A stretch of 64,000 nucleotides of DNA from Lachnospiraceae bacterium (GTDB lineage Bacteria; Bacillota; Clostridia; Lachnospirales; Lachnospiraceae). The stretch lies in contig JAFTWC010000041.1 in the NCBI GenBank assembly GCA_017465475.1, positions 1 to 64,000 of the forward strand, read 5' to 3'. A program made the position numbers and the translations under genes. Positions 38,660-56,105 of the stretch are shown piece after piece; the stretch's first letter is position 1; each line of letters opens with the position of its first letter. Below the pieces are notes generated by a model. The model searched no databases and was not told where the DNA came from. It worked only from the letters and a program-made list of their open reading frames with translations.

Positions 38660-39433
38660 ATGAAGGTTGTTATCTTGGCGGGGGGCTTAGGAACCCGTAT
38701 CAGTGAAGAAAGTCATTTAAAGCCGAAGCCGATGATTGCCATCGGAGATGCGCCGATTCTGTGGCACATTATGAAGGGCTATTCCCATTACGGATTTAAC
38801 GAATTTGTGATTTGTTGCGGCTACAAGGGACATATCATCAAGGAATATTTTGCGGATTACTATTTGCATCGTTCCGACATTACCTTTGACTTTACCAACG
38901 GAAATGAAATGATTGTGCACAACAATGTGGCGGAGCCGTGGAAAGTGACCCTGGTGGATACAGGACTCCATACCCAGACAGGCGGACGTATCAAACGGAT
39001 TCGCAACTACATCGGCAATGAACCGTTCCTTTGCACCTACGGTGACGGTGTGTCGGATGTGGATATCAATAAGCTGGTGGAGTTCCACAAGAGTCACGGG
39101 AAAATTGCCACTATTACGGCGGTGCAGCCGGGTAATAAGTTCGGTGTGTTGGAAATCGGGGACAATCAGGTGATTCAGAAGTTTACGGAAAAAGGTAAGG
39201 AAGAGGGCGGCTGGATTAATGCCGGCTTCATGGTACTGGGACCGGAAGTGTTTGATATGATAGAGGAAGATTCCACCATATTGGAACGGAAGCCTTTTGA
39301 AACCCTGGCTGCCATGGGGGAACTGGTGGCATATAAATACGACGGATTCTGGCAGTGTATGGACACCCAGAGAGACAAGCACTATTTAGAGGCAATGTTG
39401 GAGAGAGGTGATGCTCCGTGGATCAAATGGTAA
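38660..39433 (+). CDS. rfbF: Glucose-1-phosphate cytidylyltransferase
   Basis: 257 residues, the RfbF length. The nucleotidyltransferase signature MKVVILAGGLGTRISEESHLKPKPM is followed by GYKGHIIKEYFADYY and CTYGDGVSDVDI (metal-binding Asp), and EGGWINAGFMVLGPEVFD near 190. It makes CDP-glucose from CTP and glucose-1-phosphate, the first step to 3,6-dideoxyhexoses and related sugars. The usual next enzymes (CDP-glucose 4,6-dehydratase RfbG and RfbH) are not in the window. Its 3' end overlaps the next glycosyltransferase by 16 nt. Confidence 0.95.
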   Translation: MKVVILAGGLGTRISEESHLKPKPMIAIGDAPILWHIMKGYSHYGFNEFVICCGYKGHIIKEYFADYYLHRSDITFDFTNGNEMIVHNNVAEPWKVTLVDTGLHTQTGGRIKRIRNYIGNEPFLCTYGDGVSDVDINKLVEFHKSHGKIATITAVQPGNKFGVLEIGDNQVIQKFTEKGKEEGGWINAGFMVLGPEVFDMIEEDSTILERKPFETLAAMGELVAYKYDGFWQCMDTQRDKHYLEAMLERGDAPWIKW

Positions 39434-40401
39434 AGGTAAGTGTCATTATGCTGACCTATAACAGGGAAGCACTGGTGGGACGGGCCATTGAGTCCATCTT
39501 AGCTCAGACCATGAAAGAATTTGAATATATCATTGTGGACAACGGTTCCACAGACCGGAGCGGCGCCATCGCTGAGGAATATGCAAAGAAGGATGCCCGC
39601 ATCCGGGTACTGCACATCCCGAAGAGTAATATCGGCACCGGAAGAAATGCGGGACTGGACGCGGCAAAGGGCGAGTACATCACCTTTATTGACGATGACG
39701 ACACGGCAGAACCGGACATGCTGGAGTTTTTGTACGGACTGGCGAAAGAAGCGGGGGCGGAGATTTCGGTGTGCGGGTCCGTAAAGGAAGCAGACGGTGA
39801 ATTGTCACCGAACTGTGTATTTGATGAAAAACTCATTCTGACACCGGAGGAAGCAGTGATAACCCTTCTGGAACGAAAGAAAATAAAGACCGGTATGCCG
39901 GCAAAGTTGGTAAAACGGGAACTGTTTGAGGGAGTTCGGTTCCCTACGGAAGGCAAATACGAAGACATCCGCACCACCTATAAATACTTTGCCATTGCCA
40001 ACCGTGTGGTGGCCCAGGGAAGTCCGAAATACCGGGTACTTCGCCATGTTGGAAATAACTCCGCATTTACCACAAACGATGTGCTTCTGACACCGGAGCA
40101 GCTGGACGAGTACTTTGAAGCATTCCGGGAACGGACGGAATACTTATCCGACAAACTTCCGAAGATTGCAGACTATGCCCAATACAGCGAATGGTCTTAC
40201 ATGATTTCTATGTGTAACAAGATATCGAGAAACAAACTGGCATCCTGCCAGAAACAGTTGGAGTTTGTGAAGAAAGAGCTGACGGAGCATTACGATGAAT
40301 TCTATGGGTCGGAGTATATTGAAGAGTTTGAGAAGGAGTTTATGAGGGAGTATATAGAGCATTCTGTGGGAAAAAGATTAGGGGTCAGTGCATTGCTTTA
40401 A
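39418..40401 (+). CDS. Family 2 glycosyltransferase
   Basis: 327 residues; GTG at 39418 or ATG at 39427 may be the start. GT-A fold: VSVIMLTYNREALVGRAIESIL, VDNGSTDRSGAIAEEYAKKD and the acidic motif TFIDDDDTAEPDML (about residue 88). The C-terminal ~100 residues are helical. It transfers a sugar to a glycan or protein acceptor. The rfbF overlap suggests that it uses or follows the CDP-glucose branch. No membrane helix. Confidence 0.92.
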   Translation: MDQMVKVSVIMLTYNREALVGRAIESILAQTMKEFEYIIVDNGSTDRSGAIAEEYAKKDARIRVLHIPKSNIGTGRNAGLDAAKGEYITFIDDDDTAEPDMLEFLYGLAKEAGAEISVCGSVKEADGELSPNCVFDEKLILTPEEAVITLLERKKIKTGMPAKLVKRELFEGVRFPTEGKYEDIRTTYKYFAIANRVVAQGSPKYRVLRHVGNNSAFTTNDVLLTPEQLDEYFEAFRERTEYLSDKLPKIADYAQYSEWSYMISMCNKISRNKLASCQKQLEFVKKELTEHYDEFYGSEYIEEFEKEFMREYIEHSVGKRLGVSALL

Positions 40402-40421: not shown

Positions 40422-41726
40422 ATGAGATTTGCAAATATTTATTGGCAAAATACGGAGATAAAAAACGGAACAAAACGTGTTAATATAGGAGATAATTTAC
40501 AATTTTTTGCAGTAGATAATCTTTATAGCAAAATGCAGATTGATAGCAAGGAAATTGTATATTTGAAGATGGAAGAATTATGTGACTATAAGGGAGAATA
40601 TTTGATTTTGCCAATGAATTGGTCTTTGTTTGATTTGAATTATATGCGAGAGGGTCGAATTGCAATATCACCATACATTTTTCCGGTTTTTTTAGCAATG
40701 ACAATTGAATCGGCAACACATAATGATGACTATTTTAATGAGTATAATATCGCTTACTTAAAAAGGTATGAGCCAATCGGCTGTCGTGATGAATATACCA
40801 TGCAAAAACTACGTGATTACGGTGTTGTTGCATACTTGAATGGGTGTTTGACACTTGCATTTGATAAAAGAGAAAAGGGGGAGAAGCAGGAAAAGATATT
40901 TATAGTTGATGCCCCTAGAGAATTAGAGATGTATATGCCGGAAGATATTAAGAAAAAATGCGAGGTTTTAACGCAACAATATTATTATGAGGAAGAAGTG
41001 ACAGAGGAAGAAGTTATCAGCAAAATTAAGGCACAGTATTGTAAATATGCAGAAGAGGGAGCTCTAATTGTGACGTCAAGACTACATGTTGCGTCTCCTG
41101 CGGTAGCAATGGGGATACCGGTGATTTTTGCGAGAGATAGAATTGATTACCGTTTTGCTTGGATAGATAAATTGTTGCCGTTGTATGAACGACAGGATTA
41201 CGGGCGGATAAATTGGGATCCTGATGTAATTGAGTGTGAAGAAATCAAGAATCGAATGATTGATAATGCAATAAAGAGAATAAAAGACACCTATGAAAAG
41301 AATTCCTGTTATGAAATTAGTGATTTTTTTGAAAATAGAGAAACTAGAAATTATGTCAAATTTCAAGAGACCATTCAGGGTAATCTGTGTCGCGCGTACG
41401 AATTTATAGCAGGCAGATATGATAAAAGTGCCAGTTTTTATTATAGTATTTGGGGTGCAACAAAAGGAGCAGAGGAATTTTTCTGTTATATGAAAGAAGA
41501 GTATCCAAATGCTGAATTACGATGCGTTATAGATATGTATAGAGAAGAAGTATTTCATGGAATTAAGATGGTAAAACCGGAACAGTTTCAGTTGACAGAT
41601 AATGAAGTGGTAATTGTTCTTGCGGTAAAAGCATCTAATATGGCGGAAGAGGTGTTTGGAAATAAAAGGATACAATCCAAAGACTATGTATGTGTAGGTG
41701 ATTTGTTTTTTAGAGATAAAAAATGA
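40422..41726 (+). CDS. Polysaccharide pyruvyl transferase-like protein with extra C-terminal domain
   Basis: 434 residues. The first ~290 fit the polysaccharide pyruvyl transferase family: NIGDNLQFFAVDNLY at the start, EPIGCRDEYTMQKLRDYGV, then LIVTSRLHVASPAVAMGIPVIFAR near 220-245. The last ~130 residues look like a small Rossmann-type unit (FYYSIWGATKGAEEFF...AELRCVIDMYREEVFHGI...VVIVLAV). It may add pyruvyl ketals to a glycan or act as a glycosyltransferase-like enzyme. Base composition becomes markedly A/T-rich from this gene on. Confidence 0.75.
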   Translation: MRFANIYWQNTEIKNGTKRVNIGDNLQFFAVDNLYSKMQIDSKEIVYLKMEELCDYKGEYLILPMNWSLFDLNYMREGRIAISPYIFPVFLAMTIESATHNDDYFNEYNIAYLKRYEPIGCRDEYTMQKLRDYGVVAYLNGCLTLAFDKREKGEKQEKIFIVDAPRELEMYMPEDIKKKCEVLTQQYYYEEEVTEEEVISKIKAQYCKYAEEGALIVTSRLHVASPAVAMGIPVIFARDRIDYRFAWIDKLLPLYERQDYGRINWDPDVIECEEIKNRMIDNAIKRIKDTYEKNSCYEISDFFENRETRNYVKFQETIQGNLCRAYEFIAGRYDKSASFYYSIWGATKGAEEFFCYMKEEYPNAELRCVIDMYREEVFHGIKMVKPEQFQLTDNEVVIVLAVKASNMAEEVFGNKRIQSKDYVCVGDLFFRDKK

Positions 41727-41777
41727 GAAGCAGTTAATGAGTTGTACGGAATAAAATGATGATTGAAAGGATACGGA

Positions 41778-43016
41778 ATGGAAAAAGTACAAAATTATGC
41801 ATGGCCTATTACGGCGGTAAGTAAAGAAGATTATACTGTTATTCTGGATTGTGTAAGGGAGAATAAGGAGAAGTTTGAGGGAAAGCAGATATTAATTTTT
41901 GGTGCGGGAATTCGAGGCGCAGAATTTTCGGTTGTATTGGAAGGAGAAGGCTATACAAATATTGTTTTCACTGACAATAATAAAGAAAAGTGGGGCGGGG
42001 TAATAGATGGTTATCCTATTATTAGTGTGGAAGAGGCACTAAACAGGAGGGAAAATGTTGTTTATATGATTTCTGTAGAAGAAGGTGACTCTATCAGAGA
42101 TCAGTTGCTAAATGCTGGGTTGGAAGAAAATAAAGATTTTTATTATCCTAAAGCAGATTTATATGAAAGGTTCACGGAGGAATTTCGTCGCCCGATGAAA
42201 GATGAGATATTAGTTATGGGTGATTGCATGTTTGAAGTGATTTCTTTCTATGATAAAAACAAGGACTCATTATCTGAAATCATGCAACAACAGTTAGGTT
42301 ATGAAAATGTAAAATTGTTAACAATGCATGGAATGGGAATGCCTTCGTTTTATCATGTGTTAAAAGGACAGTTGAATTGCGGATATAAACCTTCCGTTTT
42401 TGTTGTGATGTTGAATTTTGAAACACTTACCGGAAAACAACATCTACTGCCACGGTCGCAACATACAAAGTTAGCACGAATGGTGAGTGAAACGGCACCG
42501 GATCCGGACGAAGAATTGAAACGATATGCAGAATTAACAGAAGAGAGAGTAAAAAATGTGCAAGCAGAGTTTTTTACTACAAACAATATGTCGTCTGCAA
42601 AAATGTCCAATAATAGTAAGGGTAAAATAAGTGATAGTGCATCCAAGGTGTTTTTTAAGTTGAATTATATGTATAAACTTGATACAGAGATGGAAAGTAT
42701 CCAATATCTGAGGGAAGTCCTGAGAATGGCTAAAGAAAAAGATTTTCAGGTGCTTCCGTTTGTTCCTCCGGTAAATTATCAGCGCGGAGAAGAACTCTTT
42801 GGAAGCGCATTTGAACAAGCGTACAGTCATAATTTGACGGCACTAACAGAGGTTGTGGAAGAAGAGGGATTCCATTTGCTAGATTTAAGTCATATATGCA
42901 CTAGGGAGCTTTTTGCTCACGCTTCAACACCGGATGAAACAACAAATTATGAAGGTCGCACATTAGTTGCAAAGAAGATATGTGAAGAATTATGCAGAAT
43001 GGAGAAGAACGTATGA
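41778..43016 (+). CDS. Rossmann-domain plus SGNH-hydrolase-like protein
   Basis: 412 residues from ATG 41778 (AAAGGA at 41766-41771). Residues 25-130 form a Rossmann-like domain (KQILIFGAGIRGAEFSVVLEGEGYTNIVFTDNN, GVIDGYPIISVEEAL) resembling NAD-type domains attached to surface-glycan enzymes. From about 140 a second domain begins EILVMGDCMFEV, like block I of SGNH esterases but with Cys in place of Ser, and ends STPDETTNYEGRTLVAKKICEEL, where the family's H-x-x-x-G motif has lost its His. It may be an acyltransferase, an inactive homologue or a carrier-binding protein. The stop overlaps the carrier protein gene (ATGA). Confidence 0.6.
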   Translation: MEKVQNYAWPITAVSKEDYTVILDCVRENKEKFEGKQILIFGAGIRGAEFSVVLEGEGYTNIVFTDNNKEKWGGVIDGYPIISVEEALNRRENVVYMISVEEGDSIRDQLLNAGLEENKDFYYPKADLYERFTEEFRRPMKDEILVMGDCMFEVISFYDKNKDSLSEIMQQQLGYENVKLLTMHGMGMPSFYHVLKGQLNCGYKPSVFVVMLNFETLTGKQHLLPRSQHTKLARMVSETAPDPDEELKRYAELTEERVKNVQAEFFTTNNMSSAKMSNNSKGKISDSASKVFFKLNYMYKLDTEMESIQYLREVLRMAKEKDFQVLPFVPPVNYQRGEELFGSAFEQAYSHNLTALTEVVEEEGFHLLDLSHICTRELFAHASTPDETTNYEGRTLVAKKICEELCRMEKNV

Positions 43017-43246
43017 ATGAGATAAAACAATTTATTATTGAGAAATTAGAAGAAGCGAGTGGAATAGATGGGGTGAAGGAAGAGAGCTTGTTGTTTGAGG
43101 AAGAGATATTAGATTCATTAAGTATATTATATCTTGTAGGGGAAGTAGAAGAACAGTATGGAATACAAATACCGCTGGAAGATGTAATCGAGGATAATTT
43201 TTGTACGGTTAATCATATAGCATTATATTTAAAAAATCGGATGTAG
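43013..43246 (+). CDS. Acyl carrier protein
   Basis: 77 residues from ATG 43013, overlapping the preceding stop by 4 nt; GGAGAAG lies ahead. The phosphopantetheine serine is in EEEILDSLSILYLVGEVEEQYGI (the DSL motif, about residue 37). It is acidic overall, as expected. It is not the fatty-acid ACP context: it stands alone with an amino-acid-type adenylating enzyme 24 bp downstream and a PLP decarboxylase after that. Closest analogues by layout are DltC, butirosin BtrI and the carrier proteins of exosortase-type exopolysaccharide loci. Confidence 0.9.
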   Translation: MNEIKQFIIEKLEEASGIDGVKEESLLFEEEILDSLSILYLVGEVEEQYGIQIPLEDVIEDNFCTVNHIALYLKNRM

Positions 43247-43270: not shown

Positions 43271-44794
43271 ATGGACAGAACAGTAGTAAGTTATTTTAAA
43301 AATACGGCAGAACGATATGGAAGTAAAATGGCATGTGCAGACGATGTGAGCAGCATGTCGTATAAAGAGTTGTGGGAGGAATCACATATTATTTCGGGTA
43401 ACTTACTGAAATATTTCGAGGTGCGTAAGCCGATACCGGTATTGATGAAGAAAAGTTGTAGAACACTTTCGGTGATGTGGGGAATCATTAAAGCAGGTTG
43501 CTGCTATGTGATAATAGACCCAATGTTGCCGAAGGAAAGAATTTGTGCAATTTTAAATACTTTACAAGCAGACTATATTGTGACAGAAGAGTCTTTTGTC
43601 GTAGAGGGATTGCCGAAAGGTATAAAAGTAATACATCAGGAAAGGTTGAGGGATGCTATTACAGAAACTCAAAAGAATCAGGTTGAAAATCGGATTCGTG
43701 ATATTTGCGATATTGATCCATTATATATAATGTTTACATCAGGGTCTACGGGTGTACCTAAAGGAGTGGTGGTAAATCATCGTTCGGTAATTGATTTTAT
43801 TGAATGCTTCGTGGAGAACTTTCATATTACAGAAAAAGATGTAATTGGAAATCAGGCACCATGGGATTTTGATGTATCTGTAAAAGATATTTTTTCGGCA
43901 GTTAAGACGGGAGCTACAGTGCAGATAATAGCAAAAAAGTATTTTTCGTTTCCTATACAACTGGCAGAATTATTGGAAGAAAGAAAAGTCACTACCTTGA
44001 TATGGGCAGTTTCTGCGTTGTGCATTTTATCTTCAAAGAATGTGTTTTCTCATATCAGACCGAAATGCATTGAAAAGATTATATTTAGTGGAGAGGTAAT
44101 GCCTGTCAATCAATATAATATTTGGAGACGACAGTATCCGGAAGCTTTGTTTGTAAATGTATATGGTCCTACAGAAATTACATGTAATTGTACGTATTGT
44201 GTATTAAAGGGAGAATACATGGAGGGGGAGGTATTGCCAATAGGAAAAGCGTTTTCAAATGAACGCGTTTTTTTGTTGGATGAGCAAGACTGCCTGATTG
44301 AAAAGAAAAAAACGAATGTTAAAGGTGAAATTTGTGTGTCAGGAACGGCGGTTTCGATGGGGTATTATAATGCGACGGAAGAAACGGAGAGACATTTTGT
44401 CCAAAATCCGCTAAATAAGATGTATCGTGAAATAATATACAGGACAGGAGATATAGGTTACTATAATAAAGACGGGGAACTATGCTTTTTGGCAAGAAAA
44501 GACTTTCAAATCAAGTATATGGGTCACAGGATAGAACTGGGGGAAATTGAGAGGGCATTTTACAAGGTTTCCGGGATACGACAGATTTGTTGTATTTATC
44601 ATAAGAGTGAGATTTTTGCGTTTGTTGTCGGTGATACCGATACAAAAAAGATTACTCGGGAAATCAGAAAGATACTGCCTCAATATATGCTCCCGTCACA
44701 TGTGATAAATATGAATGAATTGCCATTGAACAACAATGGAAAAATTGATCGGAAGGGTTTAGTTGTTTATTTAGAAAGGGAAGAAAAATGTTAA
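43271..44794 (+). CDS. AMP-forming adenylation enzyme (NRPS/DltA-like)
   Basis: 507 residues, a stand-alone adenylation domain. Core motifs: A3 IMFTSGSTGVPKGVVVNH (about 155), A5 NVYGPTEITCNCTY (about 296), A7 YRTGDIGYYNKDGELCFLARKD, A8 QIKYMGHRIELGEIE and A10 LPLNNNGKIDRKGL with the catalytic Lys. The motif set is that of amino-acid-activating domains. It should activate a carboxylate with ATP and load it on the adjacent carrier protein. The substrate cannot be read by eye. It overlaps the decarboxylase gene by 7 nt. Confidence 0.9.
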   Translation: MDRTVVSYFKNTAERYGSKMACADDVSSMSYKELWEESHIISGNLLKYFEVRKPIPVLMKKSCRTLSVMWGIIKAGCCYVIIDPMLPKERICAILNTLQADYIVTEESFVVEGLPKGIKVIHQERLRDAITETQKNQVENRIRDICDIDPLYIMFTSGSTGVPKGVVVNHRSVIDFIECFVENFHITEKDVIGNQAPWDFDVSVKDIFSAVKTGATVQIIAKKYFSFPIQLAELLEERKVTTLIWAVSALCILSSKNVFSHIRPKCIEKIIFSGEVMPVNQYNIWRRQYPEALFVNVYGPTEITCNCTYCVLKGEYMEGEVLPIGKAFSNERVFLLDEQDCLIEKKKTNVKGEICVSGTAVSMGYYNATEETERHFVQNPLNKMYREIIYRTGDIGYYNKDGELCFLARKDFQIKYMGHRIELGEIERAFYKVSGIRQICCIYHKSEIFAFVVGDTDTKKITREIRKILPQYMLPSHVINMNELPLNNNGKIDRKGLVVYLEREEKC

Positions 44795-46011
44795 ATGATA
44801 TGCAGATTTGTGACATTGCACAAAAGTACGGAACTCCATCGTATTTGTTTGATTTAAGTGAATTAAGTTCTCGGGTGAAGAGAATAAAGGAATTATTGGG
44901 CGAAGAGGTTGAGTTGTGTTATGCGATGAAAGCGAATCCGTTTCTTACATTTTTTTTAGATGAATATGTTGATAAATTTGAAGTGTGTTCATTTGGAGAA
45001 TATGAGATATGTAAAAAATATGAGATATGTTCGTCTAAAATTGTATATTCGGGGGTATATAAACAGTGTGATGAATTGATGAATACTGTGAAGGATGATT
45101 TTGATGGGGATTATACGATTGAATCTAAGAAGCAGTTTGAGGAATTGTGTAATTTGATTCATGAAACAAAACGACATGCAAGAATACTGTTACGTCTTAC
45201 CAGTGGAAATCAATTTGGGATGGATGAAGAAGAAATCATAGCAATTCTGTCAAGGATTGATGAAATGCCATACATTGAATTCGCGGGGATACAGTTTTTT
45301 TCGGGAACTCAGAAAAAAAATATTGAGATTGTGGAACGGGAATTGACGGAGTTGGATGCATTTTGCACGAAAGTAAAAATAGAGACCGGAAAAGTAATTA
45401 CTCGAATAGAATATGGAGCAGGATTGTTTGTTGATTATTTTGGAGATGAAGAAGCTGACTTTGATGATTTGATAAAAATGAGAGAGTGGTTGCAAAAGCG
45501 ACAATATCATTTTGTAATTGAGCTTGGTCGATATATTGTTGCAACGTGTGGCAAATATTTGACAAAAATTGTTGATATAAAGAAGAATAAAGGTAAGCGA
45601 TATTGTATGATAGACGGAGGGATACACCAGATAAATTATTATGGACAAATGCTCGGATTGAGGGTGCCTCCGGTTCGACAAGTTTCGTACGAAAGAAAAC
45701 AAATTGGAGAAAGTGAAAAATGGACGGTATGTGGTGCTCTTTGTACGGTACATGATGTTGTTTTGCGTGAATATGAGATGCAGAATCCGTGCGAAGGGGA
45801 TTTATTATTGTTTGAAATGATAGGGGCGTATTCTGTTACGGAAGCTAGTTTTTTGTTTTTATCAAGAGAACTTCCGAATGTCCTTGCGATAGATGAAAAA
45901 GGACAGGTAAAGGTGTTGAGGAAGCAAATGTCGACGGCACATATAAATTCGGGGGGGGAGACGAGAAAACCGGTTAAGAAGCTTTTGGGAGTTGTCGATA
46001 TATATGGATAA
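44788..46011 (+). CDS. PLP-dependent decarboxylase, ornithine/DAP decarboxylase fold (group IV)
   Basis: 407 residues. The PLP lysine is in LCYAMKANPFL (about 47), with FEVCSFGEYEICKKY and the glycine-rich phosphate-binding segment RIEYGAGLFVDYF (about 215). The C-terminal active-site motif reads CGALCTVHDVVL, matching the LCT-x-x-D form I recall for carrier-linked decarboxylases such as BtrK and the exosortase-associated family, instead of the usual CDxxD. LysA and SpeA-type roles are unlikely given the neighbours. Inference: it decarboxylates an aminoacyl group held on the carrier protein, leaving an amine. It overlaps the adenylation gene by 7 nt. Confidence 0.85.
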   Translation: MLNDMQICDIAQKYGTPSYLFDLSELSSRVKRIKELLGEEVELCYAMKANPFLTFFLDEYVDKFEVCSFGEYEICKKYEICSSKIVYSGVYKQCDELMNTVKDDFDGDYTIESKKQFEELCNLIHETKRHARILLRLTSGNQFGMDEEEIIAILSRIDEMPYIEFAGIQFFSGTQKKNIEIVERELTELDAFCTKVKIETGKVITRIEYGAGLFVDYFGDEEADFDDLIKMREWLQKRQYHFVIELGRYIVATCGKYLTKIVDIKKNKGKRYCMIDGGIHQINYYGQMLGLRVPPVRQVSYERKQIGESEKWTVCGALCTVHDVVLREYEMQNPCEGDLLLFEMIGAYSVTEASFLFLSRELPNVLAIDEKGQVKVLRKQMSTAHINSGGETRKPVKKLLGVVDIYG

Positions 46012-46056: not shown

Positions 46057-46872
46057 ATGGAAAAGTTAGTTATGGATCGTGTATCATGTCATGTTACGGA
46101 AAGATGTAATCTTCGCTGCAAAATGTGTTCTGCATTCATCCCGAAACTTTATGAGTTGGGAAATGTGCCGGAATATGATATGGACGAGTTGATAAAAAGC
46201 TTTCAAACATATTTTGAGTTGGTAGAAAGGGTGCGGATGATTTCTATCTCTGGTGGGGAACCGATGTTGCATCCGCGGTTGGCTGAATTGCTAGAATTTC
46301 TTTTACAGTATGAAGAGCGATTCACAAAGTTAGAAGTATTTACAAACGGAACATTATCTATTCCCGAGCCGGTCTTGAAGGTTATGGCAAAATCTGAAAA
46401 GATGTTGTTGTTTGTAGATCATTATGGACCGGAAATCTCAAAAAAAGTTGATGAGATTAAAGAACTTTGTGAAAAGTACAATGTGCGCTATACGATACGA
46501 ATTTATTATGGGGAAAATGCTCATATGGGCGGCTGGTTTGACAAGAGTTTCTTAAAAGAAAAGTTAAGTGAAGAAAAGGCGAAAGAGCATTTTAGTAAGT
46601 GTGTTTCTACAAATATGTTTACTATATTTGGAAAAGAGCTGGTGTATTGTCCGATGCCGTATGAAGGATGGGCAATCGGGGCTATTCCGAGAAGCGATGT
46701 GCTTGGAGTACGATTGGTAGATGAAGAAACTACCTTGGAAGAAAAATATGAAAAATTGGTAGAACTTTGTAATGTTGAATACCTTCCGGGATGCGCATGG
46801 TGTAACGGTGTAGGAATCTACGAAGATGTTAAGCGATATGTTCCGGCAGAGCAGGTGAAAAGCAAGAAGTAA
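46057..46872 (+). CDS. Radical SAM protein, first
   Basis: 271 residues. The [4Fe-4S]/SAM motif CNLRCKMC lies at about 15-22, ISISGGEPMLHPRL at about 65 is the SAM-binding GGE motif. C-terminal cysteines (YCPMP; PGCAWCNGVG) could bind a second cluster. Such enzymes start radical chemistry on sugars or peptides, or methylate and epimerise. AACGGAGGAAG precedes the ATG. It stands directly between the carrier cassette and the giant multidomain gene, so it probably acts in the same pathway. The substrate is unknown. Confidence 0.88.
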   Translation: MEKLVMDRVSCHVTERCNLRCKMCSAFIPKLYELGNVPEYDMDELIKSFQTYFELVERVRMISISGGEPMLHPRLAELLEFLLQYEERFTKLEVFTNGTLSIPEPVLKVMAKSEKMLLFVDHYGPEISKKVDEIKELCEKYNVRYTIRIYYGENAHMGGWFDKSFLKEKLSEEKAKEHFSKCVSTNMFTIFGKELVYCPMPYEGWAIGAIPRSDVLGVRLVDEETTLEEKYEKLVELCNVEYLPGCAWCNGVGIYEDVKRYVPAEQVKSKK

Positions 46873-46887
46873 AAAAGGAGAAGACAG

Positions 46888-49800
46888 ATGATTTATGTTC
46901 GTACCTGTGCATATAACGCTGAAAAAACAATAACCAGAACAATTGAAAGCATATTGAATCAAACATATGGTGAATTTACATACTATATATTGGATAATGG
47001 TTCAAAAGATGGGACAAGAGAGATAATTCGCAGTTATGCGGAGAAAGATAGTCGGATTGTTCCTTTTTATGCTGAGCGGAATCATGATATAACAGAATGT
47101 ACGGGATTTTGGAATCTGTTTTACAGTTTACAAGACGGGGATTATCTATGTAGTTTGGATGCGGATGATTCATATGAATTAACTTTTTTAGAGGAAATGC
47201 TCCGATTTGTAACAGAGAATGATTTGGATATGGCGGCATGTGGGTCACTGTTCATGGATGCGGAAACGTGGCAACAATGTGGGGATCGTGTGTTGCATGA
47301 AAATATAGTGATAAGAGACGGAGAAGAATTGGGAAAATATTTTCCTGAAATATATTGGAATCTTCGTCAAACGTGGGGAAAATTGTATAGTGCCAAGGCG
47401 GCACGAATGCCGTATATGATTGAAAAGCCGGAATGGTATCCAAAGGCATATGGCGGGGATACGGTGAATACTTTTGAGGCGGTTAAGATGTCATTACGTA
47501 TTGGCGTACTGGCGCGACCATTACATTATTATGCATTGTCAATGAAGTCGGTATCAAATCGTTGGATCGAAGGAAGAGAAAAGTCAGATCCACTTTTGTT
47601 TGACAAGGCGAAAGAGTTATTGATTGAAAAATGTGGTATTGTTTCGGAACGAAATACGGATTTTTTATTTGCAGTGTATTTTAATGCACTTTGTGATACT
47701 TTTCGTACTTTGTTTCGTTCGAATATACCTGCGGAACAGAAGCTGCAAATAGCGAGAGAAATCTTCTTTTTTAAACACACACAAGAGATGTTTTGTCAGA
47801 AGTTTGGCGTGGCGAACGAAACAAGAGTTGCTTTTTTTGTAGATGTTGTAGTAAGTCTTTTGTCATTGTGGGAAGAAAATAAGGAGCTATCCTTTGAAAT
47901 GATTTCGGAGATCTTTTCAAATATTAATCCAGATTTTAGTCAAGTGATTACCAAAGACAGTTTTGCATGGTATATGGATAAGCATCCGATTATTATACGA
48001 AATGTAGCTTTAAGAGAATATGAGTACGCAACAAATAATTTGCTGGTTTGGCTTAATAAAAAAGAAACGAATCCAGATAAAGATTTCCCATATATATTGG
48101 GACAGCAACTGGCTGCATTACGGAACGAAGAACAGAAGTATGTTATTTTTTCAAAGCAGTTAATACGATGGTACATTGCTAATAATCAGCTAAAACGTGC
48201 GGAGGCTGAATTAAAAGAATGGAGCGAATTGCTTCCTAATGATGTTGATATTCTTACGTTAAAAGAGGCATATCAACAGCAACTAATTTCTAATGATGCT
48301 ATAAAGGGAAAACATCAATCTGAGGTTATAGTACATAATGAGTGGGATGCGGATATACTTAAAAAAGAGTATGATTTTTTTCGGTATGTTTCGCTGTTAA
48401 AAGAAGTGACAAATAAGTATGTTATTATTGTTGCTACACGAGATACTCCGTGGGGGCCGGCGTTTGAACAACAAAAAACGAAGGCCTTAAAAGATGTGGG
48501 TTATGGAGTAGATTTATATGGGAAATATCGGTATGCATATGCAGCTATTATGGACGAAGGACGAGTGCTATTTGAGAAAATCGGCACTACAACAAAAGAC
48601 GTCGTGACACATGAACTCATGATAGATGAAGATAGGATTAGTATAAGTAGTTCTGGGTTTGAAGCAGATGTAATATACGAATTTACTGCGGGCTCGATTT
48701 TGATAAATGGTGAGGAAGTATCTGCAAGAGGAAGAGGGCTTAATTTTGTTATTTATGATAAGATGTCGAAAAAAGTAGTGGATACGGTAAATTTTGATAC
48801 CTATAGCAATCAACTTTCTTGCAGACATCCACTTGAAGCGTTGGAGAGAATTCAACGTTTTGCAGAACAGCATGTGGGAGTAGAGTTGCTATGTGTTAAG
48901 GCACCTGGATTTCCTAAAAAGGATTTAACTTCAAATGAACGTTTTATTCTTGAGAATAACGTGGTTAGGGAAAAGGTTATTAGCAATTTGGAAAAATCGA
49001 TGTTTGCGATAAACAAGTATTATGATAAGAATGTATTGGAAGAGGTTTTTGCTGTTCCGAAATCGTATCATGATATAAGTGGAGTGCGTCGCTTTCAAGA
49101 TGTCAGGGGGAGAAGTGTAAATGTTGAGGGAGGACATCGAATAACATTGAATCAGCCAACTCGATGGAATAGAACGATTTATTTTATCGGAGGATGCAGT
49201 GTTTTTGGTATAGGGGCAAGCGATGAGCATACGATGGCATCTTGGCTACAAAAACAACTTAATGGCATTATAGGTGATGACGTTTTTTGTGTGCAAAATT
49301 ACGGCTATTATCTTTGCGAAGCAGATAGACAACGTGAAGAAGAGATGGACATTTTGGAAGCGTTACCTGTAAAATCAGGAGATATCGTTTTATATTATTG
49401 GACTGAAGATGGAATTTCGCCGATGAACGGATTCCCGATGATCGACTGTTCAGCTGTTGTTGCACAACCTCGGGATTGCGAGGTGTTTATAGATAAGGGA
49501 CATCTTACTCCTGATGGGTATCGTTTGGTGGCAGAGAAAATATTTGATGAGCTATTGAAACGAGGAATGTTAGAGACGACAAGTGAGTTTATGCCGGAAA
49601 AGAAACTGAGTATGTCGGACTATGGATTTGATGAGAATCAAAATAAGGAATTACAAGAGTATAAAAAAAGTCTTGTGGATTTTTATGATACAGTGTTTTC
49701 CCCGAAGATTGGTTCAATTGTTATGAACTGTAATCCATTTACATTGGGACATCGGTATTTGATTGAACAAGCTTTACAACGGTGCGACTTCTTGATGGTA

Positions 49801-50277
49801 TTTTTAGTTGAGGAAGATAGTTCCTTTTTCTCCTTTGAGGATAGATTGAGATTGGTTGAAGAAGGAACCGCTGATTTGCCGAATGTTGCGATTATTCCAA
49901 GTGGACGTTTTGTGATTTCGTCCTTGACATTTGAGGATTATTTCAATAAGTCTGAGTTGCAAGACCAAGTGGTTGATACATCGTTGGATGTAGTTGTCTT
50001 TGCTAGAGAGATTGCACCTTGTTTGCATATTTCCAAGCGTTTTGTGGGAGAAGAGCCATTTGATGCGGTAACAAGACAGTATAATGAGACAATGAGAAGA
50101 GTATTGCCGGAATATGGGATCGAATTTGTTGAGATTCCAAGGATAAAGGCAAATGACGAGGCGATTAGCGCATCAAAGGTTCGAGGCTTACTTGAAGAGA
50201 AGGACTTTGACCGAATTAAGCAGTTGGTGCCGAAGACGACATTGCGTTATCTGATGGAAAAATACGGTAACAAATAA
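46888..50277 (+). CDS. GT2 / ILEI-like / SGNH-like / citrate-lyase-ligase-like multidomain protein
   Basis: 1129 residues. (a) About 1-230: family 2 glycosyltransferase (YVRTCAYNAEKTITRTIESIL, LDNGSKDGTREII, SLDADDSYELTF). (b) About 230-470: helical, possibly repeat-containing linker. (c) About 500-640: ILEI/FAM3-like domain (YVIIVATRDTPWGPAFEQQ; ILINGEEVSARGRGLNFVIYD; VVDTVNFDTY), known attached to some bacterial glycosyltransferases. (d) About 760-885: SGNH-like domain (FIGGCSVFGIGASDEHT; HLTPDGYRLVAEKI), keeping the final His. (e) About 940-1129: nucleotidyltransferase domain like the C-terminal half of citrate lyase ligase CitC (MNCNPFTLGHRYLIEQA; FVGEEPFDAVTRQYN; ISASKVRGLL). No transmembrane helices. 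Its position after the carrier cassette suggests assembly and transfer of an acylated sugar. Confidence 0.82.
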   Translation: MIYVRTCAYNAEKTITRTIESILNQTYGEFTYYILDNGSKDGTREIIRSYAEKDSRIVPFYAERNHDITECTGFWNLFYSLQDGDYLCSLDADDSYELTFLEEMLRFVTENDLDMAACGSLFMDAETWQQCGDRVLHENIVIRDGEELGKYFPEIYWNLRQTWGKLYSAKAARMPYMIEKPEWYPKAYGGDTVNTFEAVKMSLRIGVLARPLHYYALSMKSVSNRWIEGREKSDPLLFDKAKELLIEKCGIVSERNTDFLFAVYFNALCDTFRTLFRSNIPAEQKLQIAREIFFFKHTQEMFCQKFGVANETRVAFFVDVVVSLLSLWEENKELSFEMISEIFSNINPDFSQVITKDSFAWYMDKHPIIIRNVALREYEYATNNLLVWLNKKETNPDKDFPYILGQQLAALRNEEQKYVIFSKQLIRWYIANNQLKRAEAELKEWSELLPNDVDILTLKEAYQQQLISNDAIKGKHQSEVIVHNEWDADILKKEYDFFRYVSLLKEVTNKYVIIVATRDTPWGPAFEQQKTKALKDVGYGVDLYGKYRYAYAAIMDEGRVLFEKIGTTTKDVVTHELMIDEDRISISSSGFEADVIYEFTAGSILINGEEVSARGRGLNFVIYDKMSKKVVDTVNFDTYSNQLSCRHPLEALERIQRFAEQHVGVELLCVKAPGFPKKDLTSNERFILENNVVREKVISNLEKSMFAINKYYDKNVLEEVFAVPKSYHDISGVRRFQDVRGRSVNVEGGHRITLNQPTRWNRTIYFIGGCSVFGIGASDEHTMASWLQKQLNGIIGDDVFCVQNYGYYLCEADRQREEEMDILEALPVKSGDIVLYYWTEDGISPMNGFPMIDCSAVVAQPRDCEVFIDKGHLTPDGYRLVAEKIFDELLKRGMLETTSEFMPEKKLSMSDYGFDENQNKELQEYKKSLVDFYDTVFSPKIGSIVMNCNPFTLGHRYLIEQALQRCDFLMVFLVEEDSSFFSFEDRLRLVEEGTADLPNVAIIPSGRFVISSLTFEDYFNKSELQDQVVDTSLDVVVFAREIAPCLHISKRFVGEEPFDAVTRQYNETMRRVLPEYGIEFVEIPRIKANDEAISASKVRGLLEEKDFDRIKQLVPKTTLRYLMEKYGNK

Positions 50278-50329
50278 GAGGTGCCTATAGAATGTTGAGG
50301 AGTCAGATGAAAAAGAGAGGTGTGTGGTG

Positions 50330-51349
50330 ATGCGAAAAGATGGATCCTTTATTAAACCTTCTTTTGACACAAATCGGCAAGTATTAGGACATGTGTTGCC
50401 ACTTAATATTCCTTTTACTGTGATTTTAGATAGCAGTGAGGCATGCAATTTTAGATGCAGTTATTGTTTTCGTGCAGATTCGGATAAATCTGTTTGGGGA
50501 TATGCCAAAGAGGGGAAGTTGATGGATTGGGAGTTGTTCACACAGGCAGTAGAACAGATTACAGAGTTCGAGGAACCTGTAAGGGCAATTTCTCTTTCTA
50601 ATCACGGAGAGCCGTTGTGCAACCGCCGTCTTCCTGATATGGTACGCTACATAAAAGCCAAAGGGATTACTAGCAGAATATCCATTCATACCAATGCGTC
50701 ACTGTTGGATGAAGCATATGTGTGTGATTTGGCTGATTCCGGGATTGATAAGGTGGTTATTTCTCTTCAGGGAATGACTTCGGAAAAGTATCAACAGGTT
50801 TGCGGGACCTCTGTAGACATGAACCGGTTGTATGATATGCTGAAGCTATTTTCTGAAAAGAAGAAAACTACCATGTTACATATTAAGGTGGCAGACATGG
50901 CACTGGAGCAGGGGGAAGAAGAGTTGTTTTATGAAAAGTTCCTCCCGATTGCCGACCGCGTATTTGTAGAAAAAATTGTACCGATTTGGAAAGGAACGGA
51001 ATTTTCGGAGCAACAAGCGAAAGTTATGGTGCAAAACAAATACGGTGCGTTGCTTCCAAAACAGCAATGTTGCCCGGTATTGTTTCATACAATAGTGGTA
51101 ACACCGAATGGTGACGTTTACCCGTGTACCCAGCTCCTTTCTTCGAATCTTTTGGGAAATATAAAGGAAACTACGTTAAAAGAGCTTTGGAACGGAGAAG
51201 AGAGAAAAGAACTGTTACAAAAACAGTTGGAGTTGTGCACACCGGAGATTTGCGAAGGGTGTTATATTCGGGATAACAGTATTTTTACGGAAGAAGATTT
51301 GATTGATGCGTATCGTGGTGAGATATTAGAACGACTAATACGAAAGTAA
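50330..51349 (+). CDS. Radical SAM/SPASM-domain protein, second
   Basis: 339 residues from ATG 50330 (AGAGG at 50316-50320); GTG codons at 50324 and 50327 are alternatives. The radical SAM motif CNFRCSYCF lies at about 43-51, SLSNHGEPLC is the GGE equivalent, and the C-terminal SPASM region has CCPVLFHTIVVTPNGDVYPCTQ and CTPEICEGCYI, for auxiliary Fe-S clusters. SPASM enzymes modify peptides or proteins, or dehydrogenate alcohols. It closes the A/T-rich part of the island. Its target could be the flagellin, the carrier-bound intermediate or the glycan. Confidence 0.88.
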   Translation: MRKDGSFIKPSFDTNRQVLGHVLPLNIPFTVILDSSEACNFRCSYCFRADSDKSVWGYAKEGKLMDWELFTQAVEQITEFEEPVRAISLSNHGEPLCNRRLPDMVRYIKAKGITSRISIHTNASLLDEAYVCDLADSGIDKVVISLQGMTSEKYQQVCGTSVDMNRLYDMLKLFSEKKKTTMLHIKVADMALEQGEEELFYEKFLPIADRVFVEKIVPIWKGTEFSEQQAKVMVQNKYGALLPKQQCCPVLFHTIVVTPNGDVYPCTQLLSSNLLGNIKETTLKELWNGEERKELLQKQLELCTPEICEGCYIRDNSIFTEEDLIDAYRGEILERLIRK

Positions 51350-52385: not shown

Positions 52386-54047
52386 ATGAGTATGGTAGTT
52401 CAACACAACATGCAGGCAATCAATGCCAACAGACAGTTAGGAATCGCAACAGGTGCAGTAGGAAAGTCCACTGAGAAGCTTTCTTCCGGATTCAGAATCA
52501 ACCGTGCAGCAGATGATGCAGCAGGCTTAGCTATTTCCGAGAAGATGAGAAGCCAGATCCGTGGTTTAAATCAGGCTTCCACCAACGCACAGGACGGTAT
52601 CTCTCTCATCCAGACCGCTGAAGGTGCTCTTAACGAGACTCACTCCATTCTTCAGAGAATGAGACAGCTCTCCGTACAGGCAGCCAACGGTACTGAGACC
52701 GATGAAGACCGTTCCAACCTTCAGGACGAAGTTGCTCAGCTTCAGGAAGAGCTCGACCGTATCGCTGAGACCACCGAGTTCAACACCATGAAGTTACTTG
52801 ACGGTTCCTTCAGTGGCGGTACTGCTTCTTCTACCAACGCTGGTCCGAAGTACGGACAGTACAGCGGTGGTATGGGTGCATTCATCACCTCTGATATCGC
52901 AGGTGTAAGTGTTAAGACGAATACCACTGCAACCGCAGGCGGCGAGTCTGCAGTTTGGGATGCAGCAGGTACTACCTTAACCTTGAACCTTGCTCACAAC
53001 AAGACCTATACGCAGGAAGAGGTCGATTCTCTCATTGAGAAGGCTAAGCAGGAAGACTTCAGTGCAACGAACAGACCGGCAACTGTAACCGTTAAGTTTG
53101 CAAACGGTGTTTACACCGCAAGTGGCGATGTTACTTCTTCTACCACTGTAGCAGGTACCAAGGCTGAAACCTCTGTTACCTTTGCTACCGCAGGTACTAC
53201 CGGTTATGTTGGTGCAAATACCATTGAGATTAAGGCGAATAAGTATGGTGAAGATATGAACATCACCATTGAGCTTTCCTTCGATGCTGAGGCTGGTCAG
53301 GAAGAAGCAAAGGTTAAGTCCGGTAGCACCGCTACTTATAAGACTACGGTTGACAGTAGTGTAACCAACATTGCAGGTGCTATCACCAACAAGGCAACCT
53401 ACGAGTTGAAGTTACAGTCCGGTAAGGAATACACTGCTGAAGACATCGAGAAGATTCTCGCTGAGGGTGGTGTAGATGTAGATGTTACCTTAAAGGGAAC
53501 CAGTACTCCGGGTACGGATGATCCTGCAACCATTATGGTAACGGATAAGGATTCCTTCAAGACCAGCATCACCTTACAGGGTGGTACCGGTCTCGGTGAT
53601 GAGGATGCATTCTTCACCCAGGCGAAGTACGATTCTTCTGCAGCAACCGGTGGCATGAAGCTTCAGGTAGGTGCTAACGAAGGCCAGACCATCAGCTTCA
53701 ACATCAACGACATGAGCGCTCTTTCCCTTGGTGTAAACGGTACCAACGTACGCGTTGACGATCAGGATAAGGCAGCTAACTCCATTACCGCTATCGATGG
53801 CGCTATTGAGAAGGTTTCCAAGCAGCGTTCTGCTCTCGGTGCTATTCAGAACCGTCTTGAGCACACCATTGCAAACCTCGACGTTGCAGCTGAGAACTTG
53901 CAGACCGCAGAATCTCGTATCCGTGACGTTGACATGGCTAAGGAAATGGTTGAGTACAGCAAGAACAACATCCTGTCTCAGGCATCTCAGTCCATGCTGG
54001 CTCAGGCTAACCAGTCTAACCAGGGCGTTCTTTCCTTACTTGGCTAA
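52386..54047 (+). CDS. fliC: Flagellin
   Basis: 553 residues. The conserved N-terminal D0/D1 part (1-140: [46 protein letters not shown]) and C-terminal part (465-553: [41 protein letters not shown], ending VLSLLG) are intact. The central ~320 residues are a Thr/Ser/Ala-rich variable domain, exposed on the filament and rich in potential O-glycosylation sites; no cysteine is seen. It is secreted by the flagellar type III system. Strong ribosome site, sigma-D promoter and terminator make it a single-gene unit. The glycan genes on both sides suggest modification of this protein. Confidence 0.97.
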
Positions 54048-54515: not shown

Positions 54516-54839
54516 TTGGGAAAAAAAGCAATCACGATTTTACCACAGACACAGTGCATTTTGGAAGAGATGGGAGAGCAGATTCGTTTGGCTAGGTTGC
54601 GTAGGCATCTTTCGGTAGAACTGGTAGCAGAGAGAGCGGGAGTTAGCCGTACTACGGTTTGGAATGTGGAGAAGGGGAGTCCGTCGGTGGCGATAGGAAT
54701 TTATGCCGCGGTGCTTCATGCGTTGAATCATATGGATAGGGATTTTTTATTGATTGCAAAAGATGATGAGATGGGGAGAAAGATGCAGGATTTGGAGCTG
54801 CTCACCAGAAAGAGGGCACCGAAAAAGGGAGGAAAATAG
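54516..54839 (+). CDS. hipB: HipB-like helix-turn-helix antitoxin
   Basis: 107 residues from a TTG start at 54516 with AAAGGAGGTGG ahead. An XRE-type HTH occupies about 18-75: GEQIRLARLRRHLSVELVAE, RAGVSRTTVWNVEKGSPSVAIG. The C-terminal tail is basic (LLTRKRAPKKGGK). It directly precedes hipA with adjoining stop and start, so it is the likely repressor and antitoxin of the pair. An A/T-rich region before it may hold its operator. Confidence 0.88.
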   Translation: MGKKAITILPQTQCILEEMGEQIRLARLRRHLSVELVAERAGVSRTTVWNVEKGSPSVAIGIYAAVLHALNHMDRDFLLIAKDDEMGRKMQDLELLTRKRAPKKGGK

Positions 54840-56105
54840 ATGGAAACTGCGAAGAAGACGATTTATGTGTATGAAAATTGGAGCGACGAGATACCGACAT
54901 TATTGGGGAAACTGCATGTGGAGAGTGGTCGAGGGACAGAACATTATGCCTTTGAATACGATAGGGAATGGTTAGGGAAGGAGATGCTTCCGTTTGTGCT
55001 TGATCCGGATTTGTCTTTGTACATCGGAAGGCAGTATGTACCTCTTGATAAAGCGAATTTCGGGATATTTTCCGATTCGGCACCTGACCGTTGGGGAAGA
55101 ATGCTGATGAAACGGAGAGAGAAGTTTTTGGCGGATAAAGAGGGAAGAAAGCCGAGAAAATTGTTAGAAAGCGATTATTTGCTCGGTGTATATGATGAAA
55201 CCCGTATGGGAGCAATACGTTTTTCCTTAGAGGAAGGCGGAGATTTTTTGTCGAACGATAAAGAGTATGCGACACCGCCCTGGACGACATTACGTTCTTT
55301 AGAGGAAGCTTCGCGAGAGTTTGAAAAAGATGAGAATTGTCTGAACGAAAGATGGTTGAACCAGCTTTTAAAACCCGGCTCGTCTCTCGGAGGCGCCAGA
55401 CCGAAGGCGACGGTACAGGATACCAAAGGAAATCTTTGGATTGCGAAATTTCCTTCGAAGAATGATGAAGTAAATACCGGGGCATGGGAGAAAGTGGTGC
55501 ACGACTTGGCGAGATTATGTGGTTTAAATGTGCCGGAATCAAAATTGGAAACTTTTTCAAAGCTGGGAGGGACTTTTCTCGTAAGGAGGTTTGACCGCGA
55601 GGGAGAACGGCGCATTCATTTTGCGTCGGCGATGACGATGCTTGGGAAAACAGACGGAGCATCTGCGGAAGATGGTGTGGGCTATTTGGATATGGTGTCG
55701 TTTTTGAAGGCGAACGGTGCTGCGCCGAAGCAAGATTTGCGGGAACTTTGGAAGAGGGTGGTATTTCATATGGCAGTGTCTAATACGGATGACCATTTGC
55801 GAAATCACGGCTTTCTGTTGACGAAGAGAGGATGGATTCTCTCACCGCTGTATGATGTGAATCCGGTTCCGTATGGTGAGGAGTTATCTCTGAACGTAGA
55901 TGAATATGATAATACCATTTCGATTGAATTGGCATTGGAAACGGCAGCGCAGTATGGTATAGGAGAAAAGGAAGCAGAGAAGCTGGCATGGGATATTTTG
56001 ACAACAGTGAAAGAAAATTGGGAAAGGCTTGCAAATGAGTATGGCTTGAGTAGGAGTGCGGTGGAGTATATGCGACCGGCATTTCGCTGCTGTTACGAAT
56101 CATAG
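54840..56105 (+). CDS. hipA: HipA-like serine/threonine kinase toxin
   Basis: 421 residues. HipA_N part (1-110, with NFGIFSDSAPDRWGRMLMKRRE), the ATP-binding LKPGSSLGGARPKATV (about 190), the catalytic HMAVSNTDDHLRNHGFLL (about 315) and the Mg-binding ILSPLYDVNPVP are all present, so it looks active. In E. coli HipA phosphorylates glutamyl-tRNA synthetase to induce dormancy; the target here is unknown. It starts one base after the hipB stop. Location between flagellin and a glycosyltransferase suggests island maintenance. Confidence 0.92.
   Translation: METAKKTIYVYENWSDEIPTLLGKLHVESGRGTEHYAFEYDREWLGKEMLPFVLDPDLSLYIGRQYVPLDKANFGIFSDSAPDRWGRMLMKRREKFLADKEGRKPRKLLESDYLLGVYDETRMGAIRFSLEEGGDFLSNDKEYATPPWTTLRSLEEASREFEKDENCLNERWLNQLLKPGSSLGGARPKATVQDTKGNLWIAKFPSKNDEVNTGAWEKVVHDLARLCGLNVPESKLETFSKLGGTFLVRRFDREGERRIHFASAMTMLGKTDGASAEDGVGYLDMVSFLKANGAAPKQDLRELWKRVVFHMAVSNTDDHLRNHGFLLTKRGWILSPLYDVNPVPYGEELSLNVDEYDNTISIELALETAAQYGIGEKEAEKLAWDILTTVKENWERLANEYGLSRSAVEYMRPAFRCCYES

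Follow-up and report, generated by a model that had tools for sequence, protein, structure and literature searches.

A glycosyltransferase joined to an SGNH-CitC module, a candidate glycan-acylating protein, in a flagellin island of a Lachnospiraceae bacterium

Why should a citrate lyase ligase (CitC) domain be joined to a glycosyltransferase in front of a flagellin gene? The question is raised by a stretch of 64,000 nucleotides from a Lachnospiraceae bacterium (contig JAFTWC010000041.1, positions 1 to 64,000; referred to as the window), in which one gene codes for a protein with a family 2 glycosyltransferase (GT2), an ILEI/FAM3-like unit, an SGNH-like domain and a CitC domain. An earlier note on this DNA had called these domains, pointed to an acyl carrier protein (ACP) encoded nearby and suggested that activation, acyl handling and sugar transfer are coupled in one chain. 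This is also our best reading. We give an even chance to the protein being a cytosolic glycan-building fusion, in which a GT2 enzyme is combined with a CitC/SGNH acyl-transfer module within a flagellin glycosylation island. The suggestion has to be modified in that the ACP is not a general companion of the module and the junction to GT2 is probably young. The SGNH-CitC pair is the older and wider-spread unit, and is also a more interesting object than the whole chain.

The fusion gene and its domains

The gene and its parts are located as follows (window coordinates).

46888..50277, plus strand: whole fusion gene, 1129 amino acids (aa) plus stop; Shine-Dalgarno sequence AGGAG just 5′ of the ATG
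46888..47892, plus strand: GT2 glycosyltransferase half, residues 1-335; Pfam PF00535 at 6-121, E 9.2e-23
47893..48327, plus strand: linker region, faintly TPR-like, residues 336-480; TPR_19 E 0.055
48352..48894, plus strand: ILEI/FAM3-like unit with its halves in swapped order, residues 489-669
49066..49563, plus strand: SGNH-like domain, residues 727-892
49195..49197, plus strand: Cys770, at the GDSL nucleophile position
49501..49503, plus strand: His872, the block-V histidine
49708..50253, plus strand: Citrate_ly_lig (CitC) domain of nucleotidyltransferase fold, residues 941-1122; PF08218, full profile 1-182, E 2.1e-67
49726..49752, plus strand: NxNPFTxGH motif, residues 947-955
50164..50184, plus strand: ISASxVR motif, residues 1093-1099

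The open reading frame (ORF) is intact, as the note had it, and runs from ATG to stop without internal stop codons. An assembly-made fusion, against which the note had cautioned, is ruled out because a second genome of the same genus (G552) carries the same chain, with residues 1-1128 found in one frame at 75% identity. Some match at E 1e-30 is obtained in all 10 genomes of the genus, and two of them (the window genome and G552) have the whole chain. Gene contexts were read in seven of these genomes, including that of the window (G551, G553 and G555 are outside this set). In G556 one flagellin-linked cassette holds two separate genes instead, one for the GT half (466 aa) and one for the ILEI-SGNH-CitC part (649 aa). 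The GT half is a stand-alone gene also in G115, G549 and G554, where the other half is not nearby, and the linker accompanies the GT half in relatives. In G550 an SGNH-CitC gene of 643 aa, for which BLAST gave no ILEI match, occurs elsewhere, and the flagellin island of this genome is a different one. As the whole chain is restricted to two of the ten genomes and the halves are separate genes in G556, the joint of GT2 to the remainder looks recent, and the chain of four domains gives the impression of a young fusion. The simplest reading would be that two genes of one cassette have merged into one, which suggests that both activities serve one product.

Profile searches bore out the domain calls in substance. 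The GT2 part scores 81.4 bits against Glycos_transf_2 (cut-off 23.3), and a DxD-type motif was read by eye (CSLDADDS). The CitC domain carries both of its motifs, NxNPFTxGH, which we take to be a (T/H)xGH-type ATP site, and ISASxVR. Two further models stay below their cut-offs: the equivalog TIGR00124 (220.1 bits, cut-off 262.1, profile positions 118-329 of 335) and HIGH_NTase1 (19 bits, cut-off 27), a model that presumably covers TmcAL. For the SGNH-like domain, a Pfam scan of the window segment alone gave nothing at E 0.01. Its assignment comes from a profile of 79 family members described below, which in hmmsearch matched solved SGNH/GDSL esterases (best 9otv, E 2e-4) and aligned the block-I GxC cysteine of the family onto the GDS serine of these esterases. 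The same profile gave far weaker matches to PatB (E 0.08) and AlgX (E 0.4); of the single members, 8 of 79 match Lipase_GDSL and 6 of 79 Lipase_GDSL_2. By hydropathy no membrane span was detected in the window protein, its maximal 19-residue value being 1.32 compared to 2.68 for a membrane control.

The ILEI-like domain gave a sub-threshold match in which the linear order is not kept. PF15711 gave a partial match with E 3.6e-5 and 24.6 bits, below the curated 27 (31.1 bits in the relative L123). When the halves were scanned apart, profile positions 31-88 came first (E 0.12), followed by positions 1-26 (E 0.0018), each match being weak. The swap is repeated in L123 (29-89, then 1-24) and in L115 (33-85, then 1-46). 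Single-half E-values in the three proteins range from 3.9e-4 to 0.12, and none of them has the linear order of the profile. As the swap is consistent, though each match is weak, circular permutation would be the simplest reading.

The SGNH-CitC module and its separation from citrate lyase

Relatives were collected by a pattern scan that took a single genome for each species and used a 10-row alignment. The patterns, VMNCNPF and RF[VA]G[ES]EP[FL]D, lie at CitC positions, so that the SGNH part is outside them. At least 593 stretches were found, 557 were confirmed and 80 loci, the upper limit, were kept. The alignment has 79 rows, consisting of 78 of these loci and the window protein. L128, whose match is interrupted by frame breaks, was left out, as was L151, where the stop check was too strict and caught a natural stop; block I of L151 reads GSSVAYG.

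The SGNH-like and CitC domains are joined in all 78 aligned loci, with varied partners. At position 770, where SGNH/GDSL enzymes have the serine of block I (GDSxxxG), there are 63 Cys and 16 Ser residues among the 79 members, and nothing else. The Asn of the oxyanion block (block II/III, Asn804) is present in 78 of 79, and both the block-V His872 and Gln788 are found in 79 of 79. Equally invariant (79/79) are N, N, P, F, T, G and H of NxNPFTxGH, and Arg1099. In our view nothing in the sequences speaks more strongly for a covalent acyl intermediate than the alternation of Cys and Ser at the putative nucleophile.

The partners of the core are diverse. An ILEI unit accompanies it in 30 of 81 proteins, as counted with a model that was trained on six units, several of them among its 30 matches. 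Fusion to GT2 occurs in the window protein and L114. In L132 (7930-11268) the chain continues directly from the core into an ATP-sulfurylase (a PUA-like and a catalytic domain), and in L144 epimerase domains stand before and after it. A heparinase II/III-like domain is the partner in L154 and an F420-hydrogenase-beta-type domain in L170, while L123 has two ILEI-SGNH units in one chain. Some of the L loci apparently coincide with G genomes (e.g. L114/G552, L115/G556 and L135/G419), and the two sets are thus not independent.

Some observations were made by eye on these and related chains. The first ILEI-SGNH unit of L123 (7105-10344) has GKE at the nucleophile triplet, with neither Cys nor Ser, and no CitC behind it; it looks degenerate or structural. 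Very long chains surround the core in L187 (1335 aa, cut by the contig end) and L189 (1665 aa), with a pyruvyltransferase-like part before the core and an epimerase-like part after it. ILEI-type units also occur on proteins without CitC (L030, L032, L033 and L035, in tandem in L035), their hosts being pyruvyltransferase-like, phosphoglycerol-transferase-like and SGNH-like.

The module is scattered, not common. Within the order, 24 of 392 genomes match at E 1e-60 with coverage of the SGNH part or in a long SGNH-bearing chain (manual count). Within the phylum, 9 of 398 genomes match at E 1e-70 and three of these, including the window genome itself, cover the SGNH part. Records with the module are labelled Bacillota, Bacteroidota, Spirochaetota, Actinomycetota, Campylobacterota, Acidobacteriota and Pseudomonadota, and are mostly metagenome bins. 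Matches were also found in 81 plasmid records. Among the matches listed, one covers at least 80% of the query, that of Vibrio sp. THAF190c plasmid pTHAF190c_a (97% coverage, 35% identity), while the other nine have a coverage of 51-66%, which fits the CitC part alone. No glycan genes were seen by eye on the one side of the Vibrio gene that is readable before the record ends. A viral origin was rejected, as none of the 18 stretches from a pattern scan of viral contigs is a relative.

The absence of citrate lyase genes, which the note had seen locally, holds genome-wide and in most genomes with the module. No citF was found in the window genome (88.8% complete), where Citrate_ly_lig is matched, apart from the fusion, by no more than a 172-aa frame with 28.7 bits. 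In a set of 58 picked genomes, citF is present in 2 of the 30 with the module, compared to all 28 in which only an ordinary CitC was matched. The two exceptions (G325 and G269) also hold an ordinary CitC beside citF. With citF absent from its own genome and from 28 of 30 module genomes, a role of the module in citrate metabolism is rejected. A Lelliottia candidate (H2), whose neighbours are genes of citrate-lyase type, was set aside.

A tree built from 120 CitC rows has a branch (81/96, and 82% of bootstraps) that sets apart the 95 module-type rows, two of which are short separate CitC genes; the ordinary rows come from related genomes only, and there are a few duplicates, with one ordinary gene of G028 present twice. 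The CitC motif columns are common to the 95 module-type and the 25 ordinary rows, which suggests that the chemistry has probably been kept and the acceptor changed. The SGNH-like domain of the module occupies the place of an N-terminal part that tends to be GNAT-like in ordinary CitC (matched in three of four scanned, weakly, and over the cut-off in one).

A candidate acylation route and its alternatives

CitC forms acetyl-AMP and acetylates a carrier thiol. By analogy to CitC and TmcAL, the CitC domain of the fusion would activate a small carboxylic acid with ATP to an acyl-AMP, acetate being the default acid from CitC. The acyl group would then move to Cys770 of the SGNH-like domain (a Ser in part of the family), where His872 would serve as base. 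The GT2 half would add a sugar, and the acyl group could be handed to the sugar handled by the GT2 half or by its neighbours, leading to O- or N-acylation. The acylated glycan would finally be put on flagellin. The ILEI-like unit may serve as a sugar-binding or spacer domain.

The known enzymes resemble the fusion in part. With CitC (PF08218, TIGR00124) it shares the C-terminal 182-position domain from end to end, including the motif columns; it differs in the SGNH-like N-terminal part, the TIGR00124 score below cut-off, the separate branch and the lack of citF in 28 of 30 genomes. TmcAL, the tRNA-Met cytidine acetate ligase, belongs to the same wider HIGH nucleotidyltransferase-like group and has, to our knowledge, no SGNH domain. 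The whole-sequence profile match to TmcAL has E 0.0018 with no significant single stretch, and the target of TmcAL is tRNA. From acetate and ATP the enzyme produces acetyl-AMP, which then serves as its donor (PMC7408541).

SGNH domains with an acyl-supplying partner and glycan targets are also known from AT3-SGNH (OatA type) and MBOAT-SGNH systems (PatA/PatB, DltB/DltD). There the acyl group is taken from acyl-CoA or a carrier and passed across the membrane to an outside SGNH domain; in OatA, PatB and DltD it is received from the membrane partner by the SGNH serine, which transfers it to the glycan (PMC12148441). The available text of that source names two major systems, MBOAT plus a separate SGNH protein and a single bifunctional enzyme. 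In contrast, the partner in the fusion is a soluble ligase domain, there is no membrane span, and the nucleophile position is mostly Cys. No AT3 or MBOAT protein was found among the nine window proteins scanned, to which this search was confined. A third arrangement would be added to these two if a CitC domain fed the Cys/Ser of an SGNH domain within a single soluble chain.

We put forward, tentatively and with less than even confidence, that SGNH-CitC represents a third, soluble route of glycan acylation. It would lead from a free acid and ATP via acyl-AMP and a thioester (or ester) on the SGNH Cys/Ser to a nucleotide- or lipid-linked sugar in the cytosol, without CoA, carrier or membrane acyltransferase. 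It would be sporadic in records labelled with the seven phyla named above, built into chains with GT2, epimerase, heparinase-like, F420-hydrogenase-beta-like or ATP-sulfurylase parts. If true, surface sugars would be decorated in a manner different from the known one, by a soluble chain that brings along an acid activator. Such a route would cost acetate-rich anaerobes little, and it would account for matches to citrate lyase ligase where a genome lacks citrate lyase. With a Cys in the position of the GDSL nucleophile, the mechanism lends itself to a simple test. The note knew of no described protein with the four domains of the fusion, and for the SGNH-CitC module no earlier description was seen in the literature searched. 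Neither searches on citrate lyase ligase with glycosyltransferase, SGNH or flagellin glycosylation (mostly non-subscription literature) nor those on SGNH, cysteine nucleophile, acyltransferase and glycan brought up this architecture in the texts as available.

A link to glycans is also seen around the module. GT2 accounts for 8 of 86 operon-like neighbours, which come from 53 of 77 loci (the other 24 gave no such neighbour, and L164 was lost as no gene was picked). The base rate is about 0.5% of genes (275 matches in 20 genomes of about 61 Mb, at 0.9 genes/kb; hand sums), as estimated from a different set of genomes than that of the module loci. Neighbour-family tallies comprise the first 25 families of each. 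In an isolate, Stenoxybacter acetivorans DSM 19021, the module comes right after genes for GT2, glycerophosphotransferase/GT1, LicD and capsule synthesis.

Several points weigh against the proposed acylation. The control for the neighbour count is not clean, since GT2 also makes up 5 of 76 genes more than 6 kb away at the same loci; the signal is thus one of a broad glycan region rather than of a tight partner. For several members (e.g. the GTDB-type family f11), BLAST with the window proteins revealed no glycan locus, and such members weaken the generality of the route. The SGNH call is weak for the window protein taken singly, the triad Asp869 is kept in 60 of 79 members, and Cys770 could be an acceptor thiol or structural instead of a nucleophile. 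The conservation of the CitC motifs is partly due to the construction of the scan patterns. We know of no biochemistry for any member of the module.

Of the alternatives, the one that survives best involves the carrier protein encoded in the same gene run as the fusion.

42992..43246, plus strand: ACP (DltC-like)
43271..44794, plus strand: amino-acid adenylating ligase (DltA-like); TIGR01733, 319.5 bits, just over the cut-off of 317.4
44788..46011, plus strand: pyridoxal phosphate (PLP)-dependent decarboxylase of alanine-racemase fold

The CitC domain might charge this ACP, or take the product of the ligase, and the SGNH-like domain might move the acyl or aminoacyl group from the phosphopantetheine thiol of the ACP onto the sugar. 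This would amount to a soluble relay of Dlt type, in which a BtrK-like decarboxylase trims the aminoacyl group. The normal acceptor of CitC is indeed a carrier-protein thiol. The carrier protein, ligase and alanine-racemase-fold decarboxylase of the window resemble BtrI, BtrJ and BtrK of the butirosin system, and differ in that, among the seven genus contexts, the decarboxylase homologue occurs in the window cassette only (none in the other six by BLAST at E 1e-4). We know of no counterpart of the fusion protein in the butirosin system. BtrK decarboxylates glutamate bound to the carrier BtrI (PMC7857480), and DltD is an SGNH enzyme that is carrier-fed through DltB and DltX (PMC12148441). However, only two of the 80 loci, both from the same genus, have an ACP/ligase pair like that of the window close to the module, according to a BLAST search with the window ACP at E 1e-3 by which remote ACPs could be missed. 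In the relatives with the ACP, ACP and ligase are 39-42% alike compared to 61-82% for the SGNH and CitC domains. We thus consider the relay unlikely and reject the ACP as a constant partner; because of its rarity near the module, the ACP line is more likely a separate decoration line. Of the tie to the ACP considered in the note, the proximity stands and the general co-occurrence does not.

The CitC domain could also be a true nucleotidyltransferase for the ADP- or CDP-activation of a small alcohol or phosphate, combined with an SGNH-like glycan-editing esterase. The best solved-structure profile matches of the domain are phosphopantetheine adenylyltransferases, and SGNH proteins are often esterases (PMC9487903). 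Yet Citrate_ly_lig (2e-67) is far above CTP_transf_like (0.0027), the CitC motif columns are kept, and a fixed fusion of activator and esterase makes less sense than one of activator and transferase, so that we rate this as quite improbable. Most doubtful of all is a non-catalytic, scaffold-like SGNH part with direct acylation of a sugar amine or hydroxyl by CitC from acyl-AMP: the use of acetyl-AMP by TmcAL on tRNA (PMC7408541), the variable triad Asp and the occurrence of SGNH and CitC parts also in separate overlapping frames in L095 and L106, which could be split genes or frameshifts, are in its favour, but a nucleophile restricted to Cys/Ser and an invariant His in 79 members argue for catalysis.

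The flagellin island

The remaining genes of the island, and its edges, are the following.

38660..39433, plus strand: glucose-1-phosphate cytidylyltransferase, left island edge; 389.7 bits, cut-off 300.25
39418..40401, plus strand: island GT2 glycosyltransferase, 80-92% in six relatives
40422..41726, plus strand: polysaccharide pyruvyl transferase-like protein
41763..43016, plus strand: weak PglD-N-like start plus a second SGNH-like region, with GDC by eye
46057..46872, plus strand: radical S-adenosylmethionine (SAM) protein 1, 77% in G556 and 75% in G552
50324..51349, plus strand: radical SAM/SPASM protein 2, 71-87% in G115, G556 and G552
52386..54047, plus strand: flagellin, right island edge, named by eye from the translation; same edge in five of six relatives read

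In six of the seven genus genomes read, the island lies between sugar-nucleotide/GT2 genes and fliC. The cytidylyltransferase is at its edge in all seven contexts, and in G549 the GT half is followed by housekeeping-looking genes, not by flagellin. The content between the edges varies. In G552 and G556, the two relatives with the SGNH-CitC half inside the island, similarity is high for the fusion or its separate halves (57-82%, depending on the domain), radical SAM protein 1 (75-77%) and radical SAM protein 2 (77-87%). It drops to 36-44% for ACP, ligase, pyruvyltransferase-like protein and second SGNH-like protein. Because of this contrast, the fusion and the radical SAM set would seem to behave as one module and the ACP set as an exchangeable one, which perhaps decides which group is attached.

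Glycosyltransferase genes also adjoin the flagellin loci in Clostridioides difficile, for which the available text names no SGNH-CitC protein or citrate lyase ligase (PMC2768977). The flagellin glycan of C. difficile bears amino-acid-like caps, namely taurine, alanine and glycine (PMC5207245).

In the second SGNH-like protein (41763-43016) the GDS of SGNH enzymes is replaced by GDC. Four of five aligned proteins, that of the window included, share this feature, and the fifth is probably unrelated past its start. This protein would possibly provide a second Cys-type acyl-transfer step. Directly beyond flagellin, at 54516-56105, a helix-turn-helix protein and a HipA-like protein are encoded, which from the look of their translations we take to be a HipBA-type pair.

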